A stretch of DNA of 33,979 nucleotides from Acidimicrobiales bacterium (GTDB lineage: Bacteria > Actinomycetota > Acidimicrobiia > Acidimicrobiales > Palsa-688): positions 1-33,979 of the forward strand of contig DATLUM010000059.1 in the NCBI GenBank assembly GCA_035533095.1. The letters run 5' to 3'. A program made the translations under genes and the position numbers. Below, piece by piece: positions 4,657-16,319 of the stretch. The notes beneath the pieces were generated by a model. That model had not been told where the DNA came from. It ran no database searches and saw only the letters and a list, made by a program, of their open reading frames with translations. The number at the start of each line of letters is the position of its first letter. Within the stretch, counting starts at the first letter, position 1.

Positions 4657-6132
4657 ATGAAAGCACCTATTGACGCCACACAGGAACAGCGCATACTCGA
4701 AGCCGTCCCGAGCGGGCTGCTGATAGACGGGAAGTGGCGGCCGGCCGCCGGGGGGACGACGTTCGAGGTGGAGGACCCCTCGACCGGGAACCCGATCGCC
4801 GAGGTCGCCAACGCCGACTCCGCCGACGCCTTGCAGGCGCTCGCGGCTGCGCAGGCCGCCCTCCCGGAGTGGGCGGCGACGCCCCCGCGGGAGCGGGGGG
4901 AGATCCTGAGGCGGGCGTTCGAAGCCCTTACCGAGCGCGCGGACGAGCTCGCTGTGCTCATGACCCTGGAGATGGGCAAACCGGTCTCCGAGTCGAAGGC
5001 TGAGATCTCGTACGCGGCCGAGTTCTTCCGGTGGTTCTCGGAGGAGGCGGTGCGCATCGCCGGCGACTACAAGGTGGCGCCGGGTGGCGGCAGCCGGCTG
5101 CTGGTGATGCGCCAGCCGGTCGGCCCGGCGCTTCTCATCACGCCGTGGAACTTCCCCATGGCGATGGGAACCCGCAAGATCGGCCCGGCGATCGCAGCGG
5201 GTTGCACCATGGTGCTGAAGCCGGCGGCCCTCACTCCCCTGTGTTCTCTTGCGATGGCACAGATCCTGATCGACTGCGGACTGCCTGCCGGTGTGCTGAA
5301 CGTGGTGACGACCACCGACGCAAACAGCACCACCGGCCCGCTCATCCGTGACCCAAGACTGCGCAAACTCTCTTTCACCGGCTCCACCGCTGTCGGCAAG
5401 AAGCTGATCGAGGCATCGTCGGAGCAGGTGCTACGCGTCTCGATGGAACTCGGCGGCAACGCACCGTTCCTCGTGTTCGCGGACGCAGACATCGAAGCAG
5501 CGGTCGACGGGGCGATGCTCGCCAAGATGCGCAACGGCGGCGAGGCGTGCACGTCCGCAAACCGCTTCTACGTGCAGCGCGACGTCGCCGACGAGTTCTC
5601 GCACCGGCTGGCCGAGCGGATGGGCGCTCTGAAGGTCGGCCGCGGGACCGACGTGGGCGTCAACGTCGGACCGCTGGTCAGCGAGAAGCAAAGGGCCAAG
5701 GTCGTCGAGCTGGTCGACGACGCACTCGCGAAGGGAGCGGTTCCCTCATGCGGGGCAGAGTTGCCGGAGGGGCCCGGGTACTTCTACCCGCCTACCGTTC
5801 TCTCGTCGGTTCCACGGGGCGCCCGGCTGCTCGACGAGGAGATATTCGGGCCCGTCGCGCCGGTGATCCCGTTCGAGTCGGAAGAGGATGCGGTCGGCGC
5901 CGCCAACTCCACGGAGTACGGCCTGGTCGCCTACGCGTACACCACCAATCTCGACCGGGCGATCCGTGTCGCAGAGGGGATCAAGGCGGGGATGGTCGGC
6001 ATCAACGCCGGCGTGGTGTCCAACCCGGCTGCTCCCTTCGGCGGTGTGAAGCAGTCCGGATTCGGTCGCGAAGGTGGCCGAGAGGGGATCGAAGAGTACC
6101 TGGACGTCAAGTACGTGGCCATCAAGGCCTGA
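4657..6132 (+). CDS. gabD: NAD(P)-dependent succinate-semialdehyde dehydrogenase family protein
   Basis: An aldehyde dehydrogenase of 491 residues. Landmarks are the cofactor-site 'PWNFPMAM' with Asn165, Lys188 in 'VLKPA', 'FTGSTAVGKK' (about 240-249), the general base Glu264 in 'MELGGNAP', and the nucleophile Cys298 in 'GGEACTSANRF'. The C-terminal 'PFGGVKQSGFGREGG' is typical of GabD-like enzymes, which oxidise succinate semialdehyde to succinate in the GABA shunt or 4-hydroxybutyrate use. Substrate specificity inside this superfamily cannot be read with certainty, so related semialdehydes are possible. The gene follows DUF2630 by 12 nt. Its 3' end overlaps the convergent CoA-transferase-like gene by 11 nt. 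Confidence 0.88.
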   Translation: MKAPIDATQEQRILEAVPSGLLIDGKWRPAAGGTTFEVEDPSTGNPIAEVANADSADALQALAAAQAALPEWAATPPRERGEILRRAFEALTERADELAVLMTLEMGKPVSESKAEISYAAEFFRWFSEEAVRIAGDYKVAPGGGSRLLVMRQPVGPALLITPWNFPMAMGTRKIGPAIAAGCTMVLKPAALTPLCSLAMAQILIDCGLPAGVLNVVTTTDANSTTGPLIRDPRLRKLSFTGSTAVGKKLIEASSEQVLRVSMELGGNAPFLVFADADIEAAVDGAMLAKMRNGGEACTSANRFYVQRDVADEFSHRLAERMGALKVGRGTDVGVNVGPLVSEKQRAKVVELVDDALAKGAVPSCGAELPEGPGYFYPPTVLSSVPRGARLLDEEIFGPVAPVIPFESEEDAVGAANSTEYGLVAYAYTTNLDRAIRVAEGIKAGMVGINAGVVSNPAAPFGGVKQSGFGREGGREGIEEYLDVKYVAIKA

Positions 6133-7291
6133 GCCCTCCTCGGAGCTCGTCGCGGAACTCGGGTGCCGCGACGTCGATGATCCGCTGGGCTCGCTCGGCG
6201 GCAGTGAGGCCGCGCAGGTCGGCGATGCCGTGTTCGGTGACGATCAGGTCCACGTCGCTCCGCGGGGTGGTCACGACCTCCGGCGCGGGCACGATCGTGG
6301 ACCTGCCCCCTGCCGTCGACGGGAGGGCCACTATGGACATACCTCCCGGCGACCTCGAGGCGCCTGTGCTGAAGTCGGGGTGACCGCCGGCGCCCGCGAC
6401 GATCCGGCCGCGAGCGACCTCCACGTTGGCCGAGCCGTCGAGCCCGACCTGCAATGCGGTGTTGATCGCCACGAACCGTTCGATACCGGAAATCGCCGTG
6501 AGGTCGTGGGTGTGGTCGACGTCGCGTAGTCGCAGCCCGCCGCCGGCGACCATCGCTTTCAGCGCGTCGCCACCCCAGATGTACGCGGCTTCGGCCGGAT
6601 CGACCAGCCAGCCAGCGCGGTGCAGTGAGACGAGCTCGTCGGTGACGAGCCCGGAGCGAACGCGGACAGGGACCCGCAGTGAGGAGATGACGGAGGCGCC
6701 CACCACGCCGGGTCCCCACTGGATCGTCGCTCCCTCGCTAATGAGAGCCGAGACCAGTTCACCGATCCGCTGGTGCGCGGGTCCCGGATCGTTGATCGGA
6801 GGCGGATCCGGCGGGTCGGACCGATCGATCACCTCGTGCACGTCCACATCGAGCGCCGGGAAGCCCTGCGGATCCCCGCCCTTCCAGCGTTCCACGACCA
6901 CCCTCTTTGCGTTCGCCACTGCGGCTATCGCGAACCCGGGGCTGTGGGCAAGACGCCACCCGCTAGCGGTCTCGTACGCCCCCACGACCGCCACGTCAGG
7001 TCGCAGCCTCCCGGCGACCAGGCCGGGGATCGCTGACAGCCGGGCGGGTACGGCTCGAACCCTGCCCGAGGCCACCGCGGCACGGGTGCCGGGGCCGGTG
7101 AGCAGGGTGGTGACCGGGACCCCGGTTGTCTCCAGCCAAGAGGGCCGGCGCACCACCCATCCGAGCACCACCTCCGCGTCGGCGACGCCCACGACGCCGG
7201 CTACGAGAGCCGGATCAGGTAGCGGCCCGTCGGGGCCGTCCGCCATGACGATGAGCGGGCGGCGCTGCAAGCCGGTCTCGCCGGTCACCAT
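6122..7291 (-). CDS. Acetyl-CoA hydrolase/4-hydroxybutyrate CoA-transferase-like protein, altered active site
   Basis: A 389-residue member of the acetyl-CoA hydrolase/transferase family, recognised by its C-terminal domain: 'ERFVAINTALQVGLDGS', 'GGHPDFSTGASRSPGG', 'ALPSTAGGRSTIVP', 'VVTTPRSDVDLIVTEHGIADLRG'. Family enzymes move CoA between carboxylic acids through a glutamyl-CoA intermediate. The Glu usually sits in 'N-[ST]-A-[IL]-E-V', but here the residue is Gln281. The N-terminal half is also shorter and more divergent than usual (full family about 430 residues). The protein may be non-catalytic or use another chemistry. The ATG directly abuts the stop of the DUF35 gene, so the three genes form one operon. 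It converges on gabD with an 11-nt overlap. Confidence 0.82.
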   Translation of the reverse strand: MVTGETGLQRRPLIVMADGPDGPLPDPALVAGVVGVADAEVVLGWVVRRPSWLETTGVPVTTLLTGPGTRAAVASGRVRAVPARLSAIPGLVAGRLRPDVAVVGAYETASGWRLAHSPGFAIAAVANAKRVVVERWKGGDPQGFPALDVDVHEVIDRSDPPDPPPINDPGPAHQRIGELVSALISEGATIQWGPGVVGASVISSLRVPVRVRSGLVTDELVSLHRAGWLVDPAEAAYIWGGDALKAMVAGGGLRLRDVDHTHDLTAISGIERFVAINTALQVGLDGSANVEVARGRIVAGAGGHPDFSTGASRSPGGMSIVALPSTAGGRSTIVPAPEVVTTPRSDVDLIVTEHGIADLRGLTAAERAQRIIDVAAPEFRDELRGGLRP

Positions 7292-7672
7292 TCAGGCGCC
7301 GGCGGGTACAAGCACGGGGATGGCTTCGCTGCCTGGCGGGCGTTCGAACGCTACGCGCAGCGCCATCCCCTCCTGCAGCACGGCCGGGTCGTCGCAGAGG
7401 AGCGCCGCCCACATCCACGGTCCCTCTTTGAGCTCCGCGACGGCTACCACAGACGACGCCGGCGGTGGCAGCACGGCCCAGCTGACGAGTCTCGCTTCGC
7501 CGCTCGAGGGCTCCCACCGGAGATCCTCACTGGCGCAGAAGGAGCACTGCAGCGCCTGTGGCTTGGACGCGTGGCCGTGGGGCTCGCAGCGCCGGATCAG
7601 GTAGACGCCGGCGGCGGTGCCGTCGAAGAACTCTTCACTTGCCTCGTCGCGTGCTACAGCCGGGATGCTCAC
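7292..7672 (-). CDS. DUF35/OB-fold acyl-CoA-associated zinc-ribbon protein
   Basis: A 126-residue protein beginning 'EASEEFFDGTAAGVYLIRRC', the usual start of DUF35 proteins, followed by a rubredoxin-like zinc ribbon and an OB fold. The second knuckle, 'CSFC' at about 43-46, is intact, whereas the first is 'CEPH' rather than CxxC. DUF35 proteins pair with thiolase-fold enzymes, for instance ChsH2-DUF35 with Ltp2 in steroid side-chain degradation, and are needed for partner activity. Here the start GTG overlaps the thiolase-like gene's stop (GTGA), matching that pairing. It probably forms a complex with the product of 7669-8892. The acyl substrate is unknown. Confidence 0.85.
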   Translation of the reverse strand: MSIPAVARDEASEEFFDGTAAGVYLIRRCEPHGHASKPQALQCSFCASEDLRWEPSSGEARLVSWAVLPPPASSVVAVAELKEGPWMWAALLCDDPAVLQEGMALRVAFERPPGSEAIPVLVPAGA

Positions 7673-8892
7673 GCCGGTCCCGTCCCGAGCACGAGCGTGG
7701 CGTGATGGTCAAGGATCCCGCCGTTGCCGCTGACGAGCGCAACGTCGTGGCGTTCGACCTGGCGTTCGCCGCCCTGCCCGCGGACCTGGATGATCGCTTC
7801 GGTGAGCGGCGTGAATCCCCACATGTAGAACGAGGAGAGCTGTCCGCCGCCGGTGTTCAGCTTGAGGCGACCCCCGGGGCCGATCTGCCCGCCGGTGGAC
7901 ACGAACGCGCCCCCTTCCCCCTTCGCGCAGAACCCGTAGTCCTCGAGCGACACGAGGACGGTGTAGGTGTAGCAGTCGTAGATCTGCGCTACGTCGACGT
8001 CGTCGAGCTTGACGCACGCCATCGACAGTGCCTGCGGCCCGGAGAGCGCGGCGCCTGTCACGAGCCCGAATTCCTCGTCGTGCTCGAACAGCCGGCCCGG
8101 ATGGCACTGTGCCCAACCGTTGACGTGGACGGGTGGTTGGCACAGATCGGCGGCTCGCGCTTCGGTCGTGACGACGACGGCGACGCCCCCGTTGGACACG
8201 AGGCAGCAGTCAAGCAGGCGGAACGGGTCCGCGATCACGCGCGAGCTCTTGTGGTCCTCGAGCGTGATGGGGTCACGCTTCGCGGCGGCGGGGTTCATGG
8301 CGGCCCACGCGCGCTGGGCTACGGCGATCGCTCCGAAATCCTCGCTGGTGGTTCCGAATCGGTTCATGTGCCGGCGCGCGGCGAGCGCGTAAAGCGTGTT
8401 CGCACCGATGGCGCCGGCGGAGATGGTCAGGCCGCTCCATCCATGGAGGGTGGGCTTAGGCGGTTCGGCAGGACGATCGGGTGCAACCGGGTTGGCGTTC
8501 CTGCGCCGCGCGCCATAGACGTCGCCGGCGGAACGCCCCGGCCGCAGCGGCGCGTCCGCAAAAACGCACACCACTACTTCGGCCATCCCCGACTGCACCG
8601 CCATCGATGCGAACTGCACCATGGAGCCCGCGGTCGAACCATAACCCTGCATCTCGGACAAGAGGCGGAGATCGCGCAGGCCGAGTTCGCGTTGAAGACC
8701 GAGACCGACGCCACCGCTGGTCCCGTTGGAGGTGAGCAGACCGTCGACGTCGCCCAGTTGCAGGCCGGCGTCGGCGACCGCGAGGCGGATTGCCTCTCTC
8801 GCGAAGCTCGCTGCGTTGCGGCCGTAGATGGCGCCCATCTCGGTCATGCCGAGGCCCGCTATGACAGGTCTGCGGGACTTCGGGGCGGCCAT
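7669..8892 (-). CDS. Thiolase-fold protein of the SCP-x/Ltp2 type lacking the nucleophilic Cys
   Basis: A 407-residue thiolase superfamily protein ('VIAGLGMTEMG...FAREAIRLAVADAGL'). In true thiolases the acyl-accepting Cys lies in a C-A-S-G stretch. Here the region reads 'MQGYGSTAGSMVQFASMAV' (about 81-99), with Ser86 or a neighbour in that place. The second half has 'IYDCYTYTVLVSLEDYGFC' (304-322) and 'LNTGGGQLSSFYMWGF' (345-360), resembling the Ltp2 aldolases that use tyrosines instead of Cys/His. Tyr305 and Tyr356 are candidates. A retro-aldol reaction on an acyl-CoA is therefore more likely than thiolysis. The next gene encodes its expected DUF35 partner. A TAACGT box lies 6 nt before the ATG, back to back with fabD. 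Confidence 0.85.
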   Translation of the reverse strand: MAAPKSRRPVIAGLGMTEMGAIYGRNAASFAREAIRLAVADAGLQLGDVDGLLTSNGTSGGVGLGLQRELGLRDLRLLSEMQGYGSTAGSMVQFASMAVQSGMAEVVVCVFADAPLRPGRSAGDVYGARRRNANPVAPDRPAEPPKPTLHGWSGLTISAGAIGANTLYALAARRHMNRFGTTSEDFGAIAVAQRAWAAMNPAAAKRDPITLEDHKSSRVIADPFRLLDCCLVSNGGVAVVVTTEARAADLCQPPVHVNGWAQCHPGRLFEHDEEFGLVTGAALSGPQALSMACVKLDDVDVAQIYDCYTYTVLVSLEDYGFCAKGEGGAFVSTGGQIGPGGRLKLNTGGGQLSSFYMWGFTPLTEAIIQVRGQGGERQVERHDVALVSGNGGILDHHATLVLGTGPA

Positions 8893-8898
8893 GGGGTC

Positions 8899-8904
8899 AC
8901 GTTA
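8899..8904 (-). promoter_or_regulatory. -10 box of the thiolase-like/DUF35/CoA-transferase operon
   Basis: TAACGT on the minus strand, 6 nt before the ATG at 8892, consistent with a leaderless transcript. It is divergent from the fabD box about 40 nt away. Confidence 0.4.
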
Positions 8905-8942
8905 GTGAGCACAGCAGCTATGGCGCCTGCCCGCGAGCGCTG

Positions 8943-8948
8943 TAGCTT
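8943..8948 (+). promoter_or_regulatory. -10 box of fabD
   Basis: TAGCTT ends 8 nt before the GTG at 8957. There is no Shine-Dalgarno, so leaderless initiation is likely. No convincing -35 is visible. Confidence 0.4.
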
Positions 8949-8956
8949 CGTTGCCC

Positions 8957-9886
8957 GTGCTCGCGCTCCTGTTCCCCGGCCAAGGCTCGCAACGACCCCA
9001 GATGGGAGTCCCCTGGAAGGACCATCCGGCCTGGTCCGCCGTCGAGCGCATCGCGGAGGCCACCGGCCGCGACGTCGCGGCGTTGCTCCTCGACGCCGAC
9101 GCCGAGACTCTCAAGGCGACCCGCAACTCCCAGCTCGCCGCGTTCGCGCTGAGCCTCGTCACCCTCTACGCGGCGCGCTCCTCCGGTCTGGAGTACGCGC
9201 CCGCGCCCCGGGCGGTGGCAGGTCACAGCCTCGGTGAGTACACGGCGCTCACCGCCGCCGGCGCTCTCGATGCCATTGGGGCGGCGCGCCTCGTGGCGGC
9301 GCGGGGCGAGGCGATGCAAACGGCGGCCGACAAGGAGCCCGGCACCATGGCGGCGGTGCTCGGCCTCGAGCCGGCCCAGGTCGCCGAGGCGTGCGCCGGC
9401 GTCGACGGCGCATGGCCCGCCAACGACAACGCTCCGGGCCAATTCGTTATCTCCGGCACTTCCGCCGGCGTGGCGGCCGCCGGCGAAGCCGCCCGGCAGC
9501 TCGGCGCCAAACGCGTCATGGCACTGCCGGTTGGGGGGGCATTCCACTCCCCTCTCATGGCCTCGGCACAGGGCAGGCTCGAGGAGGCCTTGCGGGAGGC
9601 GCACTTCCACGACTCAGAGATCGACGTGGTCGCGAACGTGGACGCTGCCCCTCACCGCGACGGCTGGCATGAACTCCTCTCTCGCCAGCTCGTGTCGCCG
9701 GTCCGCTGGCGCCAGTCGCTGGTCAAGCTCCGCGAACTCGGCGTAACCCATTACCTCGAGCTAGGGCCTGGCAGCGAGCTGTCCGGAATGGTCAAGCGCA
9801 CGGTCGACGACTCCGAGCGCGCCAATGTCGCGACGCCGGACGACCTCGACTCCTTGCAGGCGTTCCTCGAATCGGCCGTCGGCTAG
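8957..9886 (+). CDS. fabD: Malonyl-CoA:ACP transacylase
   Basis: FabD moves the malonyl group from CoA to acyl carrier protein, supplying extender units for fatty acid (or polyketide) synthesis in the cytoplasm. The 309-residue protein opens 'LALLFPGQGSQ', has the nucleophile elbow 'GHSLGEYTAL' (Ser at about 91), the catalytic His in 'GGAFHSPLM' (about 197), and ends with 'HYLELGPGSELSGMVKR'. An in-frame TTG at 8951 would add two residues. The GTG at 8957 gives the usual family N-terminus and lies 8 nt after a TAGCTT box. Other fab genes are absent, so this is a stand-alone fabD. It converges with the acyl-CoA synthetase gene with only 4 nt between stops. Confidence 0.95.
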   Translation: MLALLFPGQGSQRPQMGVPWKDHPAWSAVERIAEATGRDVAALLLDADAETLKATRNSQLAAFALSLVTLYAARSSGLEYAPAPRAVAGHSLGEYTALTAAGALDAIGAARLVAARGEAMQTAADKEPGTMAAVLGLEPAQVAEACAGVDGAWPANDNAPGQFVISGTSAGVAAAGEAARQLGAKRVMALPVGGAFHSPLMASAQGRLEEALREAHFHDSEIDVVANVDAAPHRDGWHELLSRQLVSPVRWRQSLVKLRELGVTHYLELGPGSELSGMVKRTVDDSERANVATPDDLDSLQAFLESAVG

Positions 9887-9890
9887 AGCG

Positions 9891-11594
9891 CTACGCGCCC
9901 ACCAGCTCATCGCGGAGCTCGCGCTTCAGGATCTTCCCTGCCGGGTTGCGCGGCAGGGGCCCGTCGTAGAACCACACCTTCACCGGGACCTTGAACGACG
10001 CCAGCTTCGTCCGCACAAATTCCTGCAGCTCGCTCTCGGTCACCGAACAACCAGCTCTCACCTGGACGACCGCCGCCGGCTCCTCACCGAGCGTCGGGTG
10101 CGCAACGCCGATCACCGCCGCGTCCGCCACCGCCGGGTGCTCGTAGAGAACAGCCTCGATCTCCACGCAGTAGATGTTCTCCCCGCCGCGGATCAGCATG
10201 TCCTTGGCACGGTCGACGATGTAGACGAAATTCTCCTCGTCCAGCCGCGCGATGTCGCCGGTGTGAAGCCAACCGTCGCTGAACGTCTGCGCCGTCGCCT
10301 CGGGCTTGCCCCAGTAGCCCTTCACGACGTTCGGCCCCTTGATCCAGAGCTCGCCGACCGAGCCGAGCGCCAACTCCCGGCCATCGGCGTCGACGACCTT
10401 CACCGTCACGACGGGAACCGGAGGGCCGACGCTGTCGGGCTTCTTCACGTAGTCCTCGCCGGCGTTCATCGTCGAGAGCGAGGAGGTCTCGGTCAGCCCG
10501 TAGCCGTTCGAGGCGGGCACGGAGCCGAACTGCTCCTGGATCCTGCGGACCAGTTCGGGAGGCGCCGGCGCGCCCCCGTAGCCGACCGCCTTGACGCTCG
10601 AGGTGTCGCGCGAGTCGAAATCAGGGTGGTCCAGCACCTGCATCACCATCGTCGGCACGCCGCCGAACGTGGTGATCCGCTCGCGCTCGATCAGCTCGAG
10701 CGCCCGGCCGGCGTCCCAGCGGTACATGATGACGAGCTTCCCGCCGGCGAGCGCGTTGGCGACCAGGACCGAATGGCAGCCCGTGGCGTGGAAGAACGGC
10801 ACCGACAGCAGGTACGCGTTCTGGGACCCGTCGCCTGCGGCGTCGACCCCTGCGCGCAACGCGTTGCGGACGTTGACGTAGAAAAGGCTGATCGGATTGG
10901 TGCAGATGTTGCGGTGCGTTCCGAGCGCACCCTTGGGCCGCCCCGTGGTACCGGAGGTGTAGAAGATCGTCGCGTCGTCGTCAGTGGCGACGTTGACCGA
11001 CGGCAGCTCGGCGCTCTCGGGTACCTGGCCGACGACGTCCTCCCAGCGCAGCATCCCCTCGGCAGGCACCGACGCGCCGCCGCGAACCACGACCGTGACC
11101 TCGAGCTCCGGCAGATCAGCGAGATGGGGGGCGATACGCGCGGCGCGGTCTTCGTCGGCTATCAGAACCTCGGTCCCCGAGTCGGCGAGCCCGTACTGCA
11201 GCTCCTCCCCCGTCCACCAGGCGTTGAGCGGCACGACGACGGCACCGGCGGCCGACGCCGCCCAGAATGCGACGGACCACTCGGGGAAGTTCCGCATGGC
11301 TATGGCCACCCTGTCGCCCTCGCGGACTCCGAACCGGTCGCGCAGGATCGTGGCGAGATGGGCGCAGGCGCGGAAATGCTCCTCGAAGGTCATGTGCTCG
11401 TCTTCGTAGACGAGGAAGGTCTTGTCGCCGTGCCCTCGGCTCAGGGTCAGGATGTCGGCGAGCGTTGCGGGGCAGTTCTTCCAGACCTTGGTCGGGATGC
11501 CGCGGATCTCGACCTCGTCGACCTCGAACATCTGGCCAGGGGCGGTGAGCTGCGCGTCGGCTTCAGCGATGGACATGGAAAAAGACCCAGTCAT
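9891..11594 (-). CDS. Fatty-acyl-CoA synthetase (AMP-forming, FadD-like)
   Basis: An adenylate-forming ligase of 567 residues that activates a carboxylic acid with ATP and CoA. The phosphate loop is 'YTSGTTGRPKGA' (about 212-223), motif A5 is 'NGYGLTETSS', motif A7 is 'GWLHTGDIARLDEENF', the hinge is 'VDRAKDMLIRGGENIYCVEIE', and the catalytic Lys554 is in 'NPAGKILKREL'. The substrate is probably a fatty or related acid but cannot be fixed. The start ATG at 11594 overlaps the upstream stop as ATGA, which is why I prefer it over the 7-residue-longer start at 11615. It is the last gene of the leuB-ilvE-cimA unit, an unusual partner for branched-chain amino acid synthesis. Confidence 0.9.
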   Translation of the reverse strand: MTGSFSMSIAEADAQLTAPGQMFEVDEVEIRGIPTKVWKNCPATLADILTLSRGHGDKTFLVYEDEHMTFEEHFRACAHLATILRDRFGVREGDRVAIAMRNFPEWSVAFWAASAAGAVVVPLNAWWTGEELQYGLADSGTEVLIADEDRAARIAPHLADLPELEVTVVVRGGASVPAEGMLRWEDVVGQVPESAELPSVNVATDDDATIFYTSGTTGRPKGALGTHRNICTNPISLFYVNVRNALRAGVDAAGDGSQNAYLLSVPFFHATGCHSVLVANALAGGKLVIMYRWDAGRALELIERERITTFGGVPTMVMQVLDHPDFDSRDTSSVKAVGYGGAPAPPELVRRIQEQFGSVPASNGYGLTETSSLSTMNAGEDYVKKPDSVGPPVPVVTVKVVDADGRELALGSVGELWIKGPNVVKGYWGKPEATAQTFSDGWLHTGDIARLDEENFVYIVDRAKDMLIRGGENIYCVEIEAVLYEHPAVADAAVIGVAHPTLGEEPAAVVQVRAGCSVTESELQEFVRTKLASFKVPVKVWFYDGPLPRNPAGKILKRELRDELVGA

Positions 11595-12100
11595 ACGATC
11601 AACAGTTCCTTCCACGAACCGAGCCTCTCGCGTACCTGGGCCGCGGTCAGTGCGAGGGTCTCGAGCCGGACCGCGTCGACGATCTCGCGCTGGTCCCAGT
11701 AGTGCTCAGCGGCGCCGCTGAACATCCTCTTGCGCCACGAGACGAGGTCGTCGGGGGCTCCGCCGAGGAACCCCCACAGGGTGTACGCCCATTCCATGTC
11801 GTAGATGACCGGTGCCCTGCCGAACTGGGCCGAGCGGCGCGTGCCACAGGCGAAGCAGCCGGCGACGGTGGCGTCTTCGTGCTCGCCCTCGGTGAGCTGC
11901 AGCCGCGGGATGAGCCGCCTGGCAAGCTTGAGCCCGTAGCCGAGGTCGGGGCCCGTGGACCCGAAGCGAGGGCCCCTGGGTTGAGCCAGCTCGGTCTGCT
12001 CGGCCGGCCTTTCCTGGTACCACGCAACGGGCGGTGGGAGCAGGGCCGATGGCCTGACCCGGTCGGAGGCCTGTACCGGTACGTGGTTTGGTTGGGTCAC
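11591..12100 (-). CDS. Conserved-looking protein of unknown function between cimA and the acyl-CoA synthetase
   Basis: I do not recognise this 169-residue protein. Its first ~55 residues are Pro/Arg-rich and look disordered. The remainder is more ordered, with 'GLKLARRLIPRLQL', a possible metal- or redox-active 'GCFACGTRR' (about 81-89), and an aromatic patch 'YDMEWAYTLWGFLGGAPDDL' (about 100-119). The C-terminus is helical. There is no signal peptide or membrane segment. It starts with GTG overlapping the cimA stop (GTGA) and ends overlapping the ligase start (ATGA), so it is almost certainly translated. The coupling suggests a role with the acyl-CoA synthetase rather than with citramalate synthesis, but that is inference. 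Confidence 0.65.
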   Translation of the reverse strand: MTQPNHVPVQASDRVRPSALLPPPVAWYQERPAEQTELAQPRGPRFGSTGPDLGYGLKLARRLIPRLQLTEGEHEDATVAGCFACGTRRSAQFGRAPVIYDMEWAYTLWGFLGGAPDDLVSWRKRMFSGAAEHYWDQREIVDAVRLETLALTAAQVRERLGSWKELLIV

Positions 12101-13731
12101 AGAGGCTGATTCTGCTGGCCTGCCGCTCCATGCAGCAACCCGAACACGATCGAGTCCTCAAGGGCGGCCCACGACGCCTCGATCACGTTCTCCGATACCC
12201 CGATGGTGGTCCAGCTGCGCTCCCCGTCCGTCGAGTCGATCAGCACCCGGGTGACCGCCGCGGTCCCCTTGCTGGTGTCGAGCACCCGGACCTTGAAGTC
12301 TGTGAGGTGGACGTGCGCGAGATTCGGGAACACCGGGCCGATCGCCTTGCGCAGGGCGGCGTCGAGCGCGTTCACCGGTCCGTTCCCCTCCGCCGTGGTT
12401 ATGACCCGGTCGTCGCCCACCAGCACCTTGACGGTCGCCTCGGTCACAAATGACCCGTCGTCGCGAAGGTCGGTGATCACCCTGTGCGACTCCAACCTGA
12501 AAAACGACTGCTTCCACCCCGTCGCCGCCCTCATCAACAGCTCGAGCGAGCCGTCAGCGACCTCGAAGTGGTACCCGCGGTGTTCCAGGTCCTTGAGCTG
12601 TTCGACCACGGCGGCGAGGACGCTGTCGTCGAGGGACAGCCCCAGCTGCTCCGCCTTCAAGGCGACGGTGGAGCGGCCCGCCATCTCGCTGACGACGAAC
12701 CGGGTGCCGTTGCCGACCGATTCCGGGTCGACGTGCTCGTAGGCGTCGCGCTGCCTGGCGATGGCGCTCGTGTGCAGGCCGGCTTTGTGCGCGAACGCGG
12801 ACGCGCCGACGAACGGCTGGTGCGGGTGGGGCGCGATGTTCACCACCTCCGCGATGTGGTGCGCCACCGAGGTGAGACGCGGCAGGCGGTCCAGACCGAT
12901 CGTCTCGACACCCATCTTCAAGGTGAGGTCCGGTACAGCCGCGGTCAGGTCGGCATTGCCGGTCCGTTCGCCGTATCCGTTGATGCAGCCTTGAATCTGG
13001 GTGACCCCCATGCGTACCGCCATGAGGGAGTTGGCGACGGCGCAGCCGGAGTCGTTGTGGAAGTGGCAGCCGAGGGCAGTACCGGGGTCGAGGGCGTGTT
13101 GGCGTAGCTCTCCGACCACCCGCTCTACTTCGAACGGAAGGCTGCCGCCGTTGGTGTCACACAGGACGAGGACCTCGGCACCGGCGCCAGCCGCGGCACG
13201 AAGCACGTCGGTGCTGAAGGCCGGGTTCGAGCGGTAACCGTCGAAGAAGTGCTCTGCGTCGAGGAACACCCGCTTGCCCTGCGCCACGAGGTAGCCGACC
13301 GAGTCGGCGACCATGTCGATCGCCTCGGTGAGGCTCGTCCGCAGAGTCTCTGTGACGTGCCACTCCGCGGACTTGGCGACGAGGCACACCACGGAGGTCT
13401 GCGCTGCGAGCATGTCGGCGAGCACGGGGTCCGTCTCCGCCCGCCCGCCGGCTTTGCGCGTCGACCCGAACGCGACGAGCGTCGCAGTCTGAAGGTTGAG
13501 CTCGCCGGCGGCGGCCCTGCGGAAGAACTCGGCGTCCTTGGGGTTCGCCCCCGGCCACCCGCCTTCGATGTACTGGACCCCGAGGTGGTCGAGCTGCTCG
13601 GCGACGCGCAGCTTGTCGTCGACGGTGAGCGACAGTCCCTCTTGCTGCGATCCGTCCCGCAACGTGGTGTCGTAGACGTCTACCGCCTCCGGCAGTTCGG
13701 GGGGGACCAGGTGCGCGTGATCACCCGACAT
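12097..13731 (-). CDS. cimA: (R)-citramalate synthase
   Basis: CimA condenses pyruvate with acetyl-CoA to citramalate, the first step of a threonine-independent route to 2-oxobutyrate and isoleucine. The 544-residue protein belongs to the DRE-TIM family: 'YDTTLRDGSQQEGLSLT' (about 20-36) holds the metal and base residues, 'DAEHFFDGY' and 'HFHNDSGCAVANS' provide further ligands, and 'GYGERTGNADL' follows. The C-terminal ~140 residues are a LeuA-dimer regulatory domain, the site of Ile feedback in this family. The length and the 'DGSQQEG' and 'FFDGY' features favour CimA over LeuA or homocitrate synthase. The ATG at 13731 overlaps ilvE by 11 nt. It belongs to the attenuator-led leuB operon. Confidence 0.92.
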   Translation of the reverse strand: MSGDHAHLVPPELPEAVDVYDTTLRDGSQQEGLSLTVDDKLRVAEQLDHLGVQYIEGGWPGANPKDAEFFRRAAAGELNLQTATLVAFGSTRKAGGRAETDPVLADMLAAQTSVVCLVAKSAEWHVTETLRTSLTEAIDMVADSVGYLVAQGKRVFLDAEHFFDGYRSNPAFSTDVLRAAAGAGAEVLVLCDTNGGSLPFEVERVVGELRQHALDPGTALGCHFHNDSGCAVANSLMAVRMGVTQIQGCINGYGERTGNADLTAAVPDLTLKMGVETIGLDRLPRLTSVAHHIAEVVNIAPHPHQPFVGASAFAHKAGLHTSAIARQRDAYEHVDPESVGNGTRFVVSEMAGRSTVALKAEQLGLSLDDSVLAAVVEQLKDLEHRGYHFEVADGSLELLMRAATGWKQSFFRLESHRVITDLRDDGSFVTEATVKVLVGDDRVITTAEGNGPVNALDAALRKAIGPVFPNLAHVHLTDFKVRVLDTSKGTAAVTRVLIDSTDGERSWTTIGVSENVIEASWAALEDSIVFGLLHGAAGQQNQPL

Positions 13732-14644
13732 GCTCGACCCAGTCCTTGTAGCGGTCTACCTTCCCGCGCACCGCGGCCTGGTAGACCTCCTGGATCTGGC
13801 GGGTCATCAGGCCGGGCTTGCCGTCCCCGACCGGGCGGTCGTCCACCGACGCGATGGGCACCACTTCTGCGGCCGTGCCCGAAAGGAACGCCTCTTCCGC
13901 GATGTAGAGGTCGGACCGGAGGATGTTGCCCACCTCCGTCTCGAAGCCGAGGTCGCGGGCGATGGTCATCACAGAGCTCTGGGTGATTCCCTCGAGCGCG
14001 CCGGCGGACAGCGGCGGGGTGATGATCTTGCCGTGGCGAACGACGAAGATGTTCTCGCCTGTGCACTCGGAAACGTAGCCCTGCGGGGACAGGAGGATCG
14101 CCTCGTCGTAGCCGGCCTTCAACGCCTCTACTTTCGCCATGGACGAGTTGATGTACATGCCGGTTCCCTTCGCTGCCGGCGGCATGGCGTTGGGGTCGTG
14201 GCGCTGCCAGGAACTGATCTTCATGCGGACGCCGTTGGCAACCCCTTCGTCGCCGAGGTAGGCGCCCCACGGCCACACCGCAATCGACACGTTCACGGGG
14301 GCCGGCAGAGGATTGAGGCCCATCTCCCCATAGCCCAGGTACACGAGCGGGCGGATGTAGCACTCGGAGAGACCGTTGACGCGAACCGTCGCCTTGGTCG
14401 CCTCGATGAGCTCCTCGACAGTGAAGGGGACGTCGATCATGAAGATCTTCGCCGAATTGAAGAGCCGGACGATGTGGTCTGTGAGCCGGAACACCGCAGG
14501 CCCGGTCTCGGTCGGGTAGGCGCGGATCCCCTCGAACACACCGCAGCCGTAGTGGAGGGAGTGGGTGAGGATGTGCACGCGGGCTTCGTCCCAGTCGACG
14601 AATTCGCCGTCCATCCAGATCTTCTCGGTCTTGGTGATCGGCAT
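13721..14644 (-). CDS. ilvE: Branched-chain amino acid aminotransferase
   Basis: A PLP fold-type IV aminotransferase of 307 residues catalysing the final step of Ile, Val and Leu synthesis with glutamate as amino donor. Visible signatures: 'HSLHYGCGVFEGIRAYPT' (about 28-45), 'YIRPLVYLGYG', the PLP lysine in 'PAAKGTGMYINSSMAK', 'DEAILLSPQGYVSECTGENIF', and 'EEAFLSGTAAEVVPIASVD'. These match IlvE rather than D-amino acid transaminase or aminodeoxychorismate lyase. It starts at ATG 14644, 4 nt after the leuB stop, and overlaps cimA by 11 nt. Confidence 0.96.
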   Translation of the reverse strand: MPITKTEKIWMDGEFVDWDEARVHILTHSLHYGCGVFEGIRAYPTETGPAVFRLTDHIVRLFNSAKIFMIDVPFTVEELIEATKATVRVNGLSECYIRPLVYLGYGEMGLNPLPAPVNVSIAVWPWGAYLGDEGVANGVRMKISSWQRHDPNAMPPAAKGTGMYINSSMAKVEALKAGYDEAILLSPQGYVSECTGENIFVVRHGKIITPPLSAGALEGITQSSVMTIARDLGFETEVGNILRSDLYIAEEAFLSGTAAEVVPIASVDDRPVGDGKPGLMTRQIQEVYQAAVRGKVDRYKDWVEHVG

Positions 14645-14648
14645 CGGA

Positions 14649-15650
14649 CTACACCCTTTCTGCGATCGCGTCGCCCACCTGGAAGGTGGAGCTGCCGGAA
14701 CCCGGGACGAATCCCGAGACCGCCTTGGTTATGCGGGAGGCGGCGTCGCCGGCCCCGAGGAAGTCGAGCATCATCGCGGTTGACACGATCGCGGCTACCG
14801 GGTTCGCCTTGCCGGTGCCCGCAATGTCGGGCGCGGACCCGTGGACTGGCTCGAACATGGAGGGCCCTGTGCGCTCGGGATTGAGGTTCCCCGAGGCGGC
14901 CCGGCCGATGCCGCCGGCGATCGCCCCCCCGAGGTCGGTGAGGATGTCCCCGAACAGGTTGTCGGTGACGATCACGTCGTAGCGCTGCGGGCTCTCGACG
15001 AAGTAGATGCACGAGGCGTCGATGTGGTTGTAGGCCGTGGTGACGTCGGGGTACTCGAGTGCCACCTGGTCGAAGGTCCGCTGCCAGAGGTCCCCCGAGA
15101 ACGTGAGCACGTTGGTCTTGTGGACCAACGTGAGATGCCGGCGGTCCCGGGACCGTGCCAGGTCGAACGCGTACCTGATGCAACGCTCCACGCCGAAGCG
15201 CGTGTTCACGGACCCCTGCGTCGCGATCTCCTGCTCCGTACCTTTGCGCAAGAAACCACCCTCGCCTGCGTAGGCGCCTTCCGTGTTCTCCCGGACCACC
15301 GAGAAGTCGATCGGCACCCCGGCACCGACGCTGGAGTCCGCTACGAAAGGCCGCAGGTTGATGTACAGGTCGAGCTCGAAACGCATCCTCAACAGCAGAC
15401 CCCGCTCCAGCACGCCCGGCGGCACCTCCGGGGTGCCGATCGCGCCGAGGAGGATGGCGTCGAAACCGCGCAGCTCGTCGAGGACGGCGTCGGGCAGCAC
15501 CTCCCCGGTCGCCAGGTAGCGGCGCCCGCCGAGGTCGTATTCGGTCGTGTCCAGGGAGGCACCGGCCGCCCGCGCGACTTTGAGCCCTTCTGCGATCACC
15601 TCGGTTCCGATCCCGTCTCCGGGGATCACGGCGATCTTGTAGGTGGTCAC
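14649..15650 (-). CDS. leuB: 3-Isopropylmalate (or 3-methylmalate) dehydrogenase
   Basis: An NAD-dependent beta-decarboxylating dehydrogenase of 333 residues. '[20 protein letters not shown]' opens the fold. The substrate helix is in '[18 protein letters not shown]', '[15 protein letters not shown]' follows, the metal site is in '[20 protein letters not shown]', and the NAD loop is '[18 protein letters not shown]'. LeuB enzymes also process 3-methylmalate in the citramalate pathway. Together with the downstream cimA and the Ile/Val-only leader peptide, this suggests a main role in isoleucine synthesis here. I chose the GTG at 15650, preceded by AGGAA and matching the family start. Extending the frame further upstream would translate the terminator hairpin. 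Confidence 0.94.
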
Positions 15651-15680
15651 GTTCCTGCTGGCTCCTGTCTCGGGTCTGGA

Positions 15681-15710
15681 CACAAAACGACCGCCCCCAA
15701 AGGGACGGTC
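15681..15710 (-). terminator. Attenuator terminator in the leuB leader
   Basis: On the minus strand, GACCGTCCC (15710-15702) pairs with GGGGCGGTC (15697-15689) over 9 bp, including one G-T pair, around a TTTG loop. GTTTTGTG (15688-15681) follows directly. It lies between the leader peptide and leuB, 31 nt before the leuB start, so it would end transcription early unless prevented. Confidence 0.75.
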
Positions 15711-15726
15711 CACGAAGCGCACCGGC
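15704..15726 (-). promoter_or_regulatory. Candidate antiterminator stem of the leuB attenuator
   Basis: CGGT and ACCG pair, with an inner CGC/GTG stem around TTC and one G-G mismatch between them. The structure uses the 3' arm of the pause hairpin and the 5' arm of the terminator, so it excludes both. It is weaker than either (about 7-8 bp), as expected of a fold that forms only while a ribosome is stalled. Inferred. Confidence 0.5.
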
Positions 15727-15742
15727 GGGCAGGCCGATGCGC
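15717..15742 (-). promoter_or_regulatory. Pause/protector hairpin (1:2) after the leader peptide
   Basis: GCGCATCGGC pairs with GCCGGTGCGC over 10 bp (one T-G pair) around a CTGCCC loop. The first base of the stem is the last base of the leader stop codon TAG. A ribosome stalled on the Ile/Val codons would cover the 5' arm. Confidence 0.65.
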
Positions 15743-15786
15743 TACACGATGATTACGATGCTGCAAGAGGGGGCGGGTCGCTTCAC
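15742..15786 (-). CDS. Attenuator leader peptide rich in Ile and Val
   Basis: A 14-residue peptide, [14 protein letters not shown], read from GTG 15786 to TAG 15742. Its last five codons are ATC GTA ATC ATC GTG, followed immediately by the stop. GTA is a rare valine codon in GC-rich genomes, which would sharpen the response. There is no leucine codon. A GGTGGG stretch lies just before the start, and the nearby promoter suggests a transcript beginning only a few nucleotides upstream. Such peptides act in cis: low charged tRNA-Ile or tRNA-Val stalls the ribosome, changing downstream folding and letting polymerase read into leuB-ilvE-cimA. The assignment rests on codon content, position and the hairpins that follow. 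Confidence 0.75.
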
Positions 15787-15795
15787 GGTCCCACC

Positions 15796-15824
15796 AGTCT
15801 CGCTGATGGCCGGCCTTCCGTCAA
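15796..15824 (-). promoter_or_regulatory. Promoter of the leuB-ilvE-cimA operon
   Basis: TTGACG (15824-15819), a 17-nt spacer and GAGACT (15801-15796) on the minus strand. Transcription would begin close to 15790, a few bases before the leader peptide GTG. It overlaps the divergent greA promoter region. Confidence 0.5.
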
Positions 15825-15831
15825 CCACCAC

Positions 15832-15837
15832 TAGCCT
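15832..15837 (+). promoter_or_regulatory. -10 box of greA
   Basis: TAGCCT, 8 nt before the greA ATG, the same hexamer as at gltX and metH. No Shine-Dalgarno lies between, so the mRNA is probably leaderless. Confidence 0.45.
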
Positions 15838-15845
15838 GGGCACGT

Positions 15846-16319
15846 ATGGCTGCCCCGCACCAACTGACCCAGGACACTTTCGAACGGCTCAAGGCGGAGC
15901 TGGAAGACCTGCGCACCCGCGGCCGGATAGAGATCGCCCGAGCCATCGAGGCCGCTCGGGCCCTCGGTGACCTCTCGGAGAACGGCGACTACCACGCTGC
16001 CAAGGACACCCAAGGGAAGATGGAGGCCCGGATCCGCCGGCTCGAGGCGATGCTCAAGGACGTCGAGATCGTCGACGGATCCGCCGCCGAGGACGGCGTG
16101 GTCGTCGCCGGTGCGGTCGTCTCGCTGCGCTACGAGGGTGACGACGAGGTGGAGAAGTACCTGATCGGTTCCATCGAGGAGCGGCGGGACGGGGTCGAGG
16201 TGATCTCGCCCAACTCGCCACTCGGGCAGGCGTTGATCGGCAAGAAGAAGGGCGAGACCGTCTCCTACGAGGCGCCTCGAGGCGCCCAGAAGGTCGAGAT
16301 CGTCGACGTAGGCAGCTGA
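15846..16319 (+). CDS. greA: Transcription elongation factor GreA
   Basis: GreA enters the secondary channel of RNA polymerase and triggers cleavage of backtracked RNA. The 157-residue protein has an N-terminal coiled coil whose tip 'GDLSENGDYHAAKD' (about 40-53) carries the acidic residues that hold the catalytic Mg2+. The C-terminal FKBP-like domain includes 'VVSLRYEG' and 'ISPNSPLGQALIGKKKGETV'. Length and motifs are standard for actinobacterial GreA. The ATG at 15846 is 8 nt after a TAGCCT box. The GH15-like gene starts 4 nt after its stop, probably in the same transcript. Confidence 0.95.
   Translation: MAAPHQLTQDTFERLKAELEDLRTRGRIEIARAIEAARALGDLSENGDYHAAKDTQGKMEARIRRLEAMLKDVEIVDGSAAEDGVVVAGAVVSLRYEGDDEVEKYLIGSIEERRDGVEVISPNSPLGQALIGKKKGETVSYEAPRGAQKVEIVDVGS

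Follow-up and report, generated by a model that had tools for sequence, protein, structure and literature searches.

The classical four-segment attenuator of the Escherichia coli trp/ilv type combines a leader with control codons, a terminator and a shared antiterminator arm. Canestrari is said to have described, in 2020, leaderless polycysteine attenuators in mycobacteria, in which a leaderless short ORF carries the control codons. In Corynebacterium glutamicum, the leader of ilvBNC holds branched-chain codons, and the authors treat the mRNA as leaderless in the accessible part of their text (PMC11857589). There, an antiterminator hairpin of ilvB is set against a terminator with which it shares GCC, and the terminator is backed by mutations (PMC11857589; ilvB-II motif, PMC10272879). 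For ilvB1NC of Mycobacterium tuberculosis, the available text gives a 166-nt leader that contains both an intrinsic terminator and an ORF with LVVI as control codons, expression that rises on IlvB1 inhibition, and mutually exclusive folds as a proposal (PMC13236596). Upstream of actinobacterial ilvB, terminators and short ORFs containing Ile/Val/Leu runs were also described, with the mode of regulation called not clear; in the accessible sections of that article, Acidimicrobiia are missing from the genomes listed, neither leuB nor cimA appears among the reported operons, and the LEU element of leuA combines a pseudoknot with a stem located at the Shine-Dalgarno box (PMC1262725).

The window analysed here is the whole 33,979-nt stretch of contig DATLUM010000059.1 from an Acidimicrobiales bacterium (assembly GCA_035533095.1). 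Its minus strand carries, ahead of leuB-ilvE-cimA, an element that is very probably a ribosome-mediated transcription attenuator sensing charged Ile-tRNA and Val-tRNA. The first-pass annotation had proposed an Ile/Val leader-peptide attenuator at this place, and the control codons, stems and terminator on which it was based proved to be conserved; the probable leaderlessness of the leader and a wider set of elements covering cimA, ilvB and leuA had been missed.

Leader, hairpins and downstream genes in the window

The element was read directly on the minus strand from 15824 to 15681. A -35-like TTGACG (15819-15824) and a -10-like GAGACT (15796-15801) are separated by a spacer of 17 nt, as first annotated, and the positions of the -10 and the -35 recur in relatives; a strict consensus promoter scan of this region found 0 promoters. 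The -10-like box lies 9 nt ahead of the leader ORF (15745-15786), which has 14 codons, begins with GTG (15786-15784) and closes, again as first read, with ATC GTA ATC ATC GTG (Ile Val Ile Ile Val, 15745-15759), assigned as control codons from the gene-matched codon identity over four downstream genes. The stop codon TAG (15742-15744) falls inside the 5' edge of P1 (15716-15743), the proposed antiterminator-side hairpin, with a loop of CTGCCC. P1 had been placed at the stop codon with 10 bp; the position holds, and the stem has 11 pairs (15743-15733 with 15726-15716) that include two stop-codon bases, from the second base on.

After a gap of 5 nt, with zero overlap, P1 is followed by the T hairpin (15689-15710), a 9-bp intrinsic terminator stem whose arms pair 15710-15702 with 15697-15689. 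The terminator scan agreed with this hairpin and its tail ahead of leuB, and T was the sole terminator-like site found in 15300-16000 (mean of shuffles, 0.3). The U-tract GTTTTGTG on the 3' side of T (15681-15688) is interrupted.

The comparison with Rfam suggested at first pass yielded no family at its gathering threshold over the element, and the only matches above threshold in the window were two tRNA genes on the minus strand at 815-887 and 1189-1260 (60 and 57.6 bits). The best sub-threshold match at the element was Atu_C8, with 22.5 bits where 50 are needed. A riboswitch or other known RNA family was rejected, as Atu_C8 on the window and Phe_leader on the related locus L143 (28.4 bits vs 55) both stayed below threshold.

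The first controlled gene, leuB (14649-15650, minus strand, GTG start at 15650), encodes 3-isopropylmalate dehydrogenase (NCBIfam NF002898, 510.6 bits, cut-off 393). It is followed on the same strand by ilvE (13721-14644), a branched-chain amino acid transaminase gene scoring over the cut-offs of NF005146 (428.2 bits) and TIGR01122 (416.7 bits), and by the citramalate synthase gene cimA (12097-13731; TIGR00977, 653.2 bits, cut-off 450). The genome also carries a threonine deaminase-type gene scoring over its cut-off, so cimA need not be the sole route to isoleucine. Divergent from leuB, greA begins at 15846, and the two genes are 195 nt apart in the window (region 14649-16319). Further along, acyl-CoA synthetase-, lipid-transfer thiolase- and CoA-transferase-like genes at 6122-11615, with scores under the curated cut-offs, suggest a putative fatty-acid or steroid breakdown cluster.

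Recurrence of the element and its leader codons

For comparison, leuB regions were gathered from the family (32 genomes, 25 of which gave a match) and from 80 loci of GTDB genomes, nearly all of which are metagenome assemblies. A MAFFT alignment (A1) misaligned P1 and its fold showed T only, and the model R1 was set aside. Fifteen relatives, without the window, served to build the covariance model R2, which the window matched with 42.5 bits (E = 3.5e-10). Over 100 sources, from which the duplicates L001, L002 and L030-L034 as well as L107-L109 were left out, R2 found a match in 69 at E < 0.001, a figure that includes the 15 model members and L086, which is cut by a contig end; some matches mirror one at the same place on the opposite strand as palindrome echoes, and one such echo is uncounted. 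Whole-genome searches matched 256 of the 397 genomes searched in the order (E <= 0.01; 161 of 203 genera) and 51 of 396 across the phylum, own order included (E <= 0.001); these counts are lower bounds, since the whole-genome search missed an ilvB element of the window's own genome that a locus search found. Among 20 phylum matches examined, a downstream gene could be assigned by similarity in 12, and three (L193, L196, L201) had a leader-like peptide with no gene found. The other five (L203, L207-L210) were taken as false, being without such a leader.

In 82 distinct sequences, two-sided changes were seen in 10/10 model pairs of P1 and 9/10 of T. The resulting 19 of 20 pairs compare with a shuffled mean of 9.9, and 96.8% of the cells pair, although fitting the alignment to the structure favours both figures. 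Neither value was attained in any of 500 shuffles, and with slid partners 33-62% of the cells paired. In all 63 elements whose stop was chosen by frame, the start of P1 and the first base of the stop codon lie 0-4 bases apart. In the comparison of related leaders that had been proposed, the stems covary and Ile/Val-rich ends recur. A chance origin, earlier judged unlikely, was ruled out by the R2 match, the order-wide recurrence, the covariation and the agreement of codons with genes described below. As a separate observation, the T position 15705/15694 is a U-G wobble in 34 of 39 leuB-class sequences, and in the wider set UG occurs in 40 and CG in 37 of the 82.

The composition of the leader end follows the gene behind it. 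The last six codons hold on average 3.84 Ile, 0.16 Val and 0.06 Leu in cimA leaders (n = 32), 1.90, 1.52 and 0.14 in leuB leaders (n = 50), 0, 0 and 3.50 in leuA leaders (n = 4), and 0.64, 2.04 and 1.64 in ilvB leaders (n = 28). At least three Ile, Leu or Val codons occur there in 32/32 cimA, 43/50 leuB, 4/4 leuA and 27/28 ilvB leaders, and in only 2 of 228 readings of the other two frames together (114 elements). The Ile/Val richness of the leuB class is partly circular, as 39 of its 50 elements were picked by eye from Ile/Val-rich ends. The other 75 elements came from R2 or, in two cases, from the window's own genome. Ile/Val codons are favoured by R2 through its 18 leuB-type leader columns; the Leu codons seen in leuA and ilvB leaders are not its product. 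For these 75 the stop was picked such that the hairpin starts there, so that the position of P1 is built in, and L195 was read in the wrong frame through this choice. Two cimA-class assignments, L083 and L037, were kept in the count despite loci ending 80 and 125 nt past the element. Dropped before the codon count were L141, L161 and L156 (without a stop-anchored P1), L171, L172, L174, L177, L193, L196 and L201 (gene then unresolved or contig end; L171 and L172 were later found to be followed by ilvB), L203 and L207-L210, the duplicates L030-L034 and L064, L085 with its odd fold, and leuB loci without an element ahead of leuB.

Seven of the 50 leuB-class leaders have fewer than three Ile, Leu or Val codons in the last six. 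The leaders of L162 and L165, ahead of leuB in genomes G143 and G059, look degenerate (AVVSVPH and TALSPRR), perhaps through loss of control or a misplaced frame. Upstream of another leuB, the leader of L085 ends in RIVIII beside a differing hairpin arrangement.

The same correspondence is found inside a single genome. The window's own genome has three elements, with leaders ending in IVIIV (leuB), LVLVLIT (ilvB; L211, G000:C106) and GLLLLM (leuA; L212, G000:C11), the last of which was found by reading the upstream region and gave no R2 match at 1e-6. Other genomes likewise carry a second copy ahead of ilvB or leuA; family matches above cut-off cover two acetolactate synthase, three isopropylmalate synthase and one citramalate synthase proteins, the remaining downstream genes being assigned by similarity. 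In 28 loci no element precedes leuB and one stands further down instead, with cimA starting at most 57 nt after it in 26 of the 28; the other two loci end earlier. The spacing of greA and leuB in these 28 loci is only 29-154 nt, compared with 195 nt in the window, and the leader ahead of leuB is absent.

Such gene-matched codons would be hard to explain otherwise than by sensing of aminoacyl-tRNA. Arrest by the nascent peptide, as in macrolide-inducible leader peptides, would make the C-terminal IVII-x stall the ribosome in response to something other than tRNA charging, and this hydrophobic stretch does directly precede the stop codon. We regard it as highly improbable, because the codons track the amino acid to which the downstream gene leads (runs of Ile for cimA and of Leu for leuA), which one arrest motif would not give.

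The position of the putative promoter recurs as well. In 73 of the 114 elements, NANACT or TANNNT lies 5-10 nt ahead of an in-frame ATG or GTG (shuffled mean, 2.8), namely in 45/50 leuB-, 13/32 cimA-, 13/28 ilvB- and 2/4 leuA-class elements; it is thus a clear signal for leuB and a weaker one for the other three genes. NANACT peaks 6-10 nt ahead of the in-frame start with 66 counts, in a tally where one element may count several times, against 0.1-0.2 expected per offset. TTGA stands 15-19 nt ahead of the -10 in 21/50 leuB-class elements and 30/114 overall (shuffled mean, 0.0). Transcription starts about 7 nt past a -10 box, which would put the 5' end of the RNA at the start codon or at most a few bases from it. 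Hence, on the strength of the 73 boxes, the leader ORF is probably leaderless.

Proposed switching step and pairing tests

We propose that the probably leaderless mRNA start, with its 14 codons, would be translated at once. When Ile and Val are ample, the ribosome would reach the stop codon and cover the 5' arm of P1, upon which T could close fully and RNA polymerase would stop at about 15681-15688. When Ile or Val is short, the ribosome would halt on the ATC and GTA codons and P1 would fold; lying next to T, the folded P1 would keep T from closing at its base, and transcription would read into leuB. The base of a terminator stem must enter the exit channel of the polymerase. That P1 antagonises T by closeness, without sharing of arms, is a step to which we give an even chance. 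Comparison between genomes shows the leader, its gene-matched codons, both hairpins, their closeness and the promoter position to be conserved.

We modelled the ribosome on 63 elements by masking 14 nt on each side of its position. The mean probability of P1 was 0.94 when the A site held codon -5, 0.79 at -3, 0.38 at -2 and 0.01 at the stop codon, which in this model makes P1 the ribosome-gated part that forms on an early stall. The drop already seen at -3 and -2 counts against the proposed scheme. Swap, shuffle and folding tests across the elements turned up no conserved alternative structure that would disrupt T, and whatever the ribosome state, T was predicted to form in almost every element (probability < 0.5 in 0-3 of 63). 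The switching step is thus left to closeness. In plain folding the gap between P1 and T was 0-5 nt in 112/112 elements parsed (two of 114, L165 among them, were unparsed); the model behind 75 of the 114 itself partly favours such closeness.

The first-pass annotation had added a third fold sharing arms with both hairpins, in the 1:2, 2:3, 3:4 layout. This is the textbook design, in which the 3' arm of P1 would pair with the 5' arm of T as antiterminator, and when overlap is permitted P1 can be extended into the base of T by at least 2 nt in 39 of 113 elements and by at least 1 nt in 49. Yet the third fold was not conserved: the pairing of the P1 3' arm with the T 5' arm was no better within (-4.77) than when swapped between species (-5.13) and was weaker than in shuffles (z +2.6 for leuB, +5.9 for ilvB), the extension of P1 into T was weaker than swapped, and the window has its 5-nt gap with no overlap possible. 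The ilvB set in these swap and shuffle tests comprised 17 elements, L171 and L172 included. Own pairing clearly beat swapped pairing only for P1 and T themselves, with no such signal for P1 3' arm with T 5' arm, P1 5' arm with T 3' arm, P1 loop with T, or upstream leader with T. We consider a trp-type switch quite unlikely here.

A different role for P1 would be that of a mere pause hairpin coupling polymerase to ribosome, with the real antitermination being long-range or protein-assisted. By the usual geometry, a hairpin starting at the stop codon would put the paused polymerase within the 5' arm of T, and pairing alone does not explain the U-G wobble in T. Two weak signals over all classes, of control codons with the T 3' arm (0.0035 of permutations) and with the P1 3' arm (0.037), would also fit a long-range contact, but they vanish within the leuB class (0.32 and 0.15, respectively) and are read as a class difference; moreover, control codons and upstream leader complement T no better than shuffles. 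This makes the pause hairpin a minor possibility, rather doubtful on present evidence.

In the window itself, leader codons 2-6 (within GCGACCCGCCCCC) could pair with the 3' arm of T as an antiterminator of its own. This pairing dominates the full-length fold, with a T probability of 0.00 without ribosome; in the model T is lost without ribosome and with the ribosome at -3, -2 or the stop codon, and kept at -5. Taken at face value, the model would give the wrong direction for starvation control. The pairing is absent from the relatives L003, L008 and L004 (T, 0.98-0.99) and is therefore treated as incidental, and T falls below 0.5 without ribosome in only 3 of 63 elements. As the actual switch, it is very unlikely.

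For antagonism by closeness, the class of genome G561, which is not that of the window's genome, offers a further comparison. Of its 30 ilvB loci, 27 have T and a run of at least three Ile, Leu or Val codons, the leaders having been chosen by the longest such run. The hairpin at the leader end finishes anywhere from 8 nt inside T to 1 nt short of it in 27/30, overlapping T by at least 2 nt in 14/27. Tentatively, and with some doubt on our part, these features may belong to a phylum-wide design in which an antiterminating hairpin occupies the space beside the terminator with no shared base needed and a ribosome at the stop codon removes it. One module would then serve with swapped codons for cimA (Ile), leuB-ilvE-cimA (Ile/Val), leuA (Leu) and ilvB (Leu/Val/Ile).

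Comparison with described attenuators

No attenuator for leuB or cimA was named in the titles and abstract openings among the matches listed, a set with most of the subscription literature outside it. The suggestion that the element may be new therefore stands, within these matches, for leuB and cimA. As far as the literature matches go, the genes (leuB and cimA), the lineages and the lack of a conserved shared arm are new, and the known relatives are ilvB attenuators.

The Acidimicrobiia-type bacteria compared here are known mostly from metagenome assemblies, and the elements would give them a readable scheme of branched-chain control, in which each leader spells out the amino acid that is sensed. 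Besides its place in the leucine pathway, leuB has a second role in the citramalate route, and its proposed control by Ile and Val beside cimA fits that role.

With the E. coli trp/ilv type the element has control codons, leader and terminator in common, whereas a shared antiterminator arm was not found here. The mycobacterial polycysteine attenuators reportedly use cysteine codons where the present leaders use Ile, Val and Leu, and a leaderless short ORF would be common to both. The closest likeness in layout is to the ilvB attenuator of C. glutamicum as its accessible text presents it, with a branched-chain leader and P1 directly against T; however, its hairpins overlap in GCC, while in the window 5 nt separate the two hairpins, without overlap of a boundary trinucleotide, and its gene is ilvB, where here leuB-ilvE-cimA, cimA and leuA are found in addition to ilvB. 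Like ilvB1NC of M. tuberculosis, the element joins a leader ORF with branched-chain codons to an intrinsic terminator; in the available description that system concerns ilvB1 only and mutually exclusive folds are proposed for it, in contrast to the closeness of P1 and T proposed here. Unlike the LEU element, as far as the accessible sections describe it, leuA here combines a leader carrying a Leu run with a P1-T pair. If closeness alone antagonises the terminator, this would bear on the regulation of actinobacterial ilvB, which the same accessible text leaves unclear (PMC1262725).
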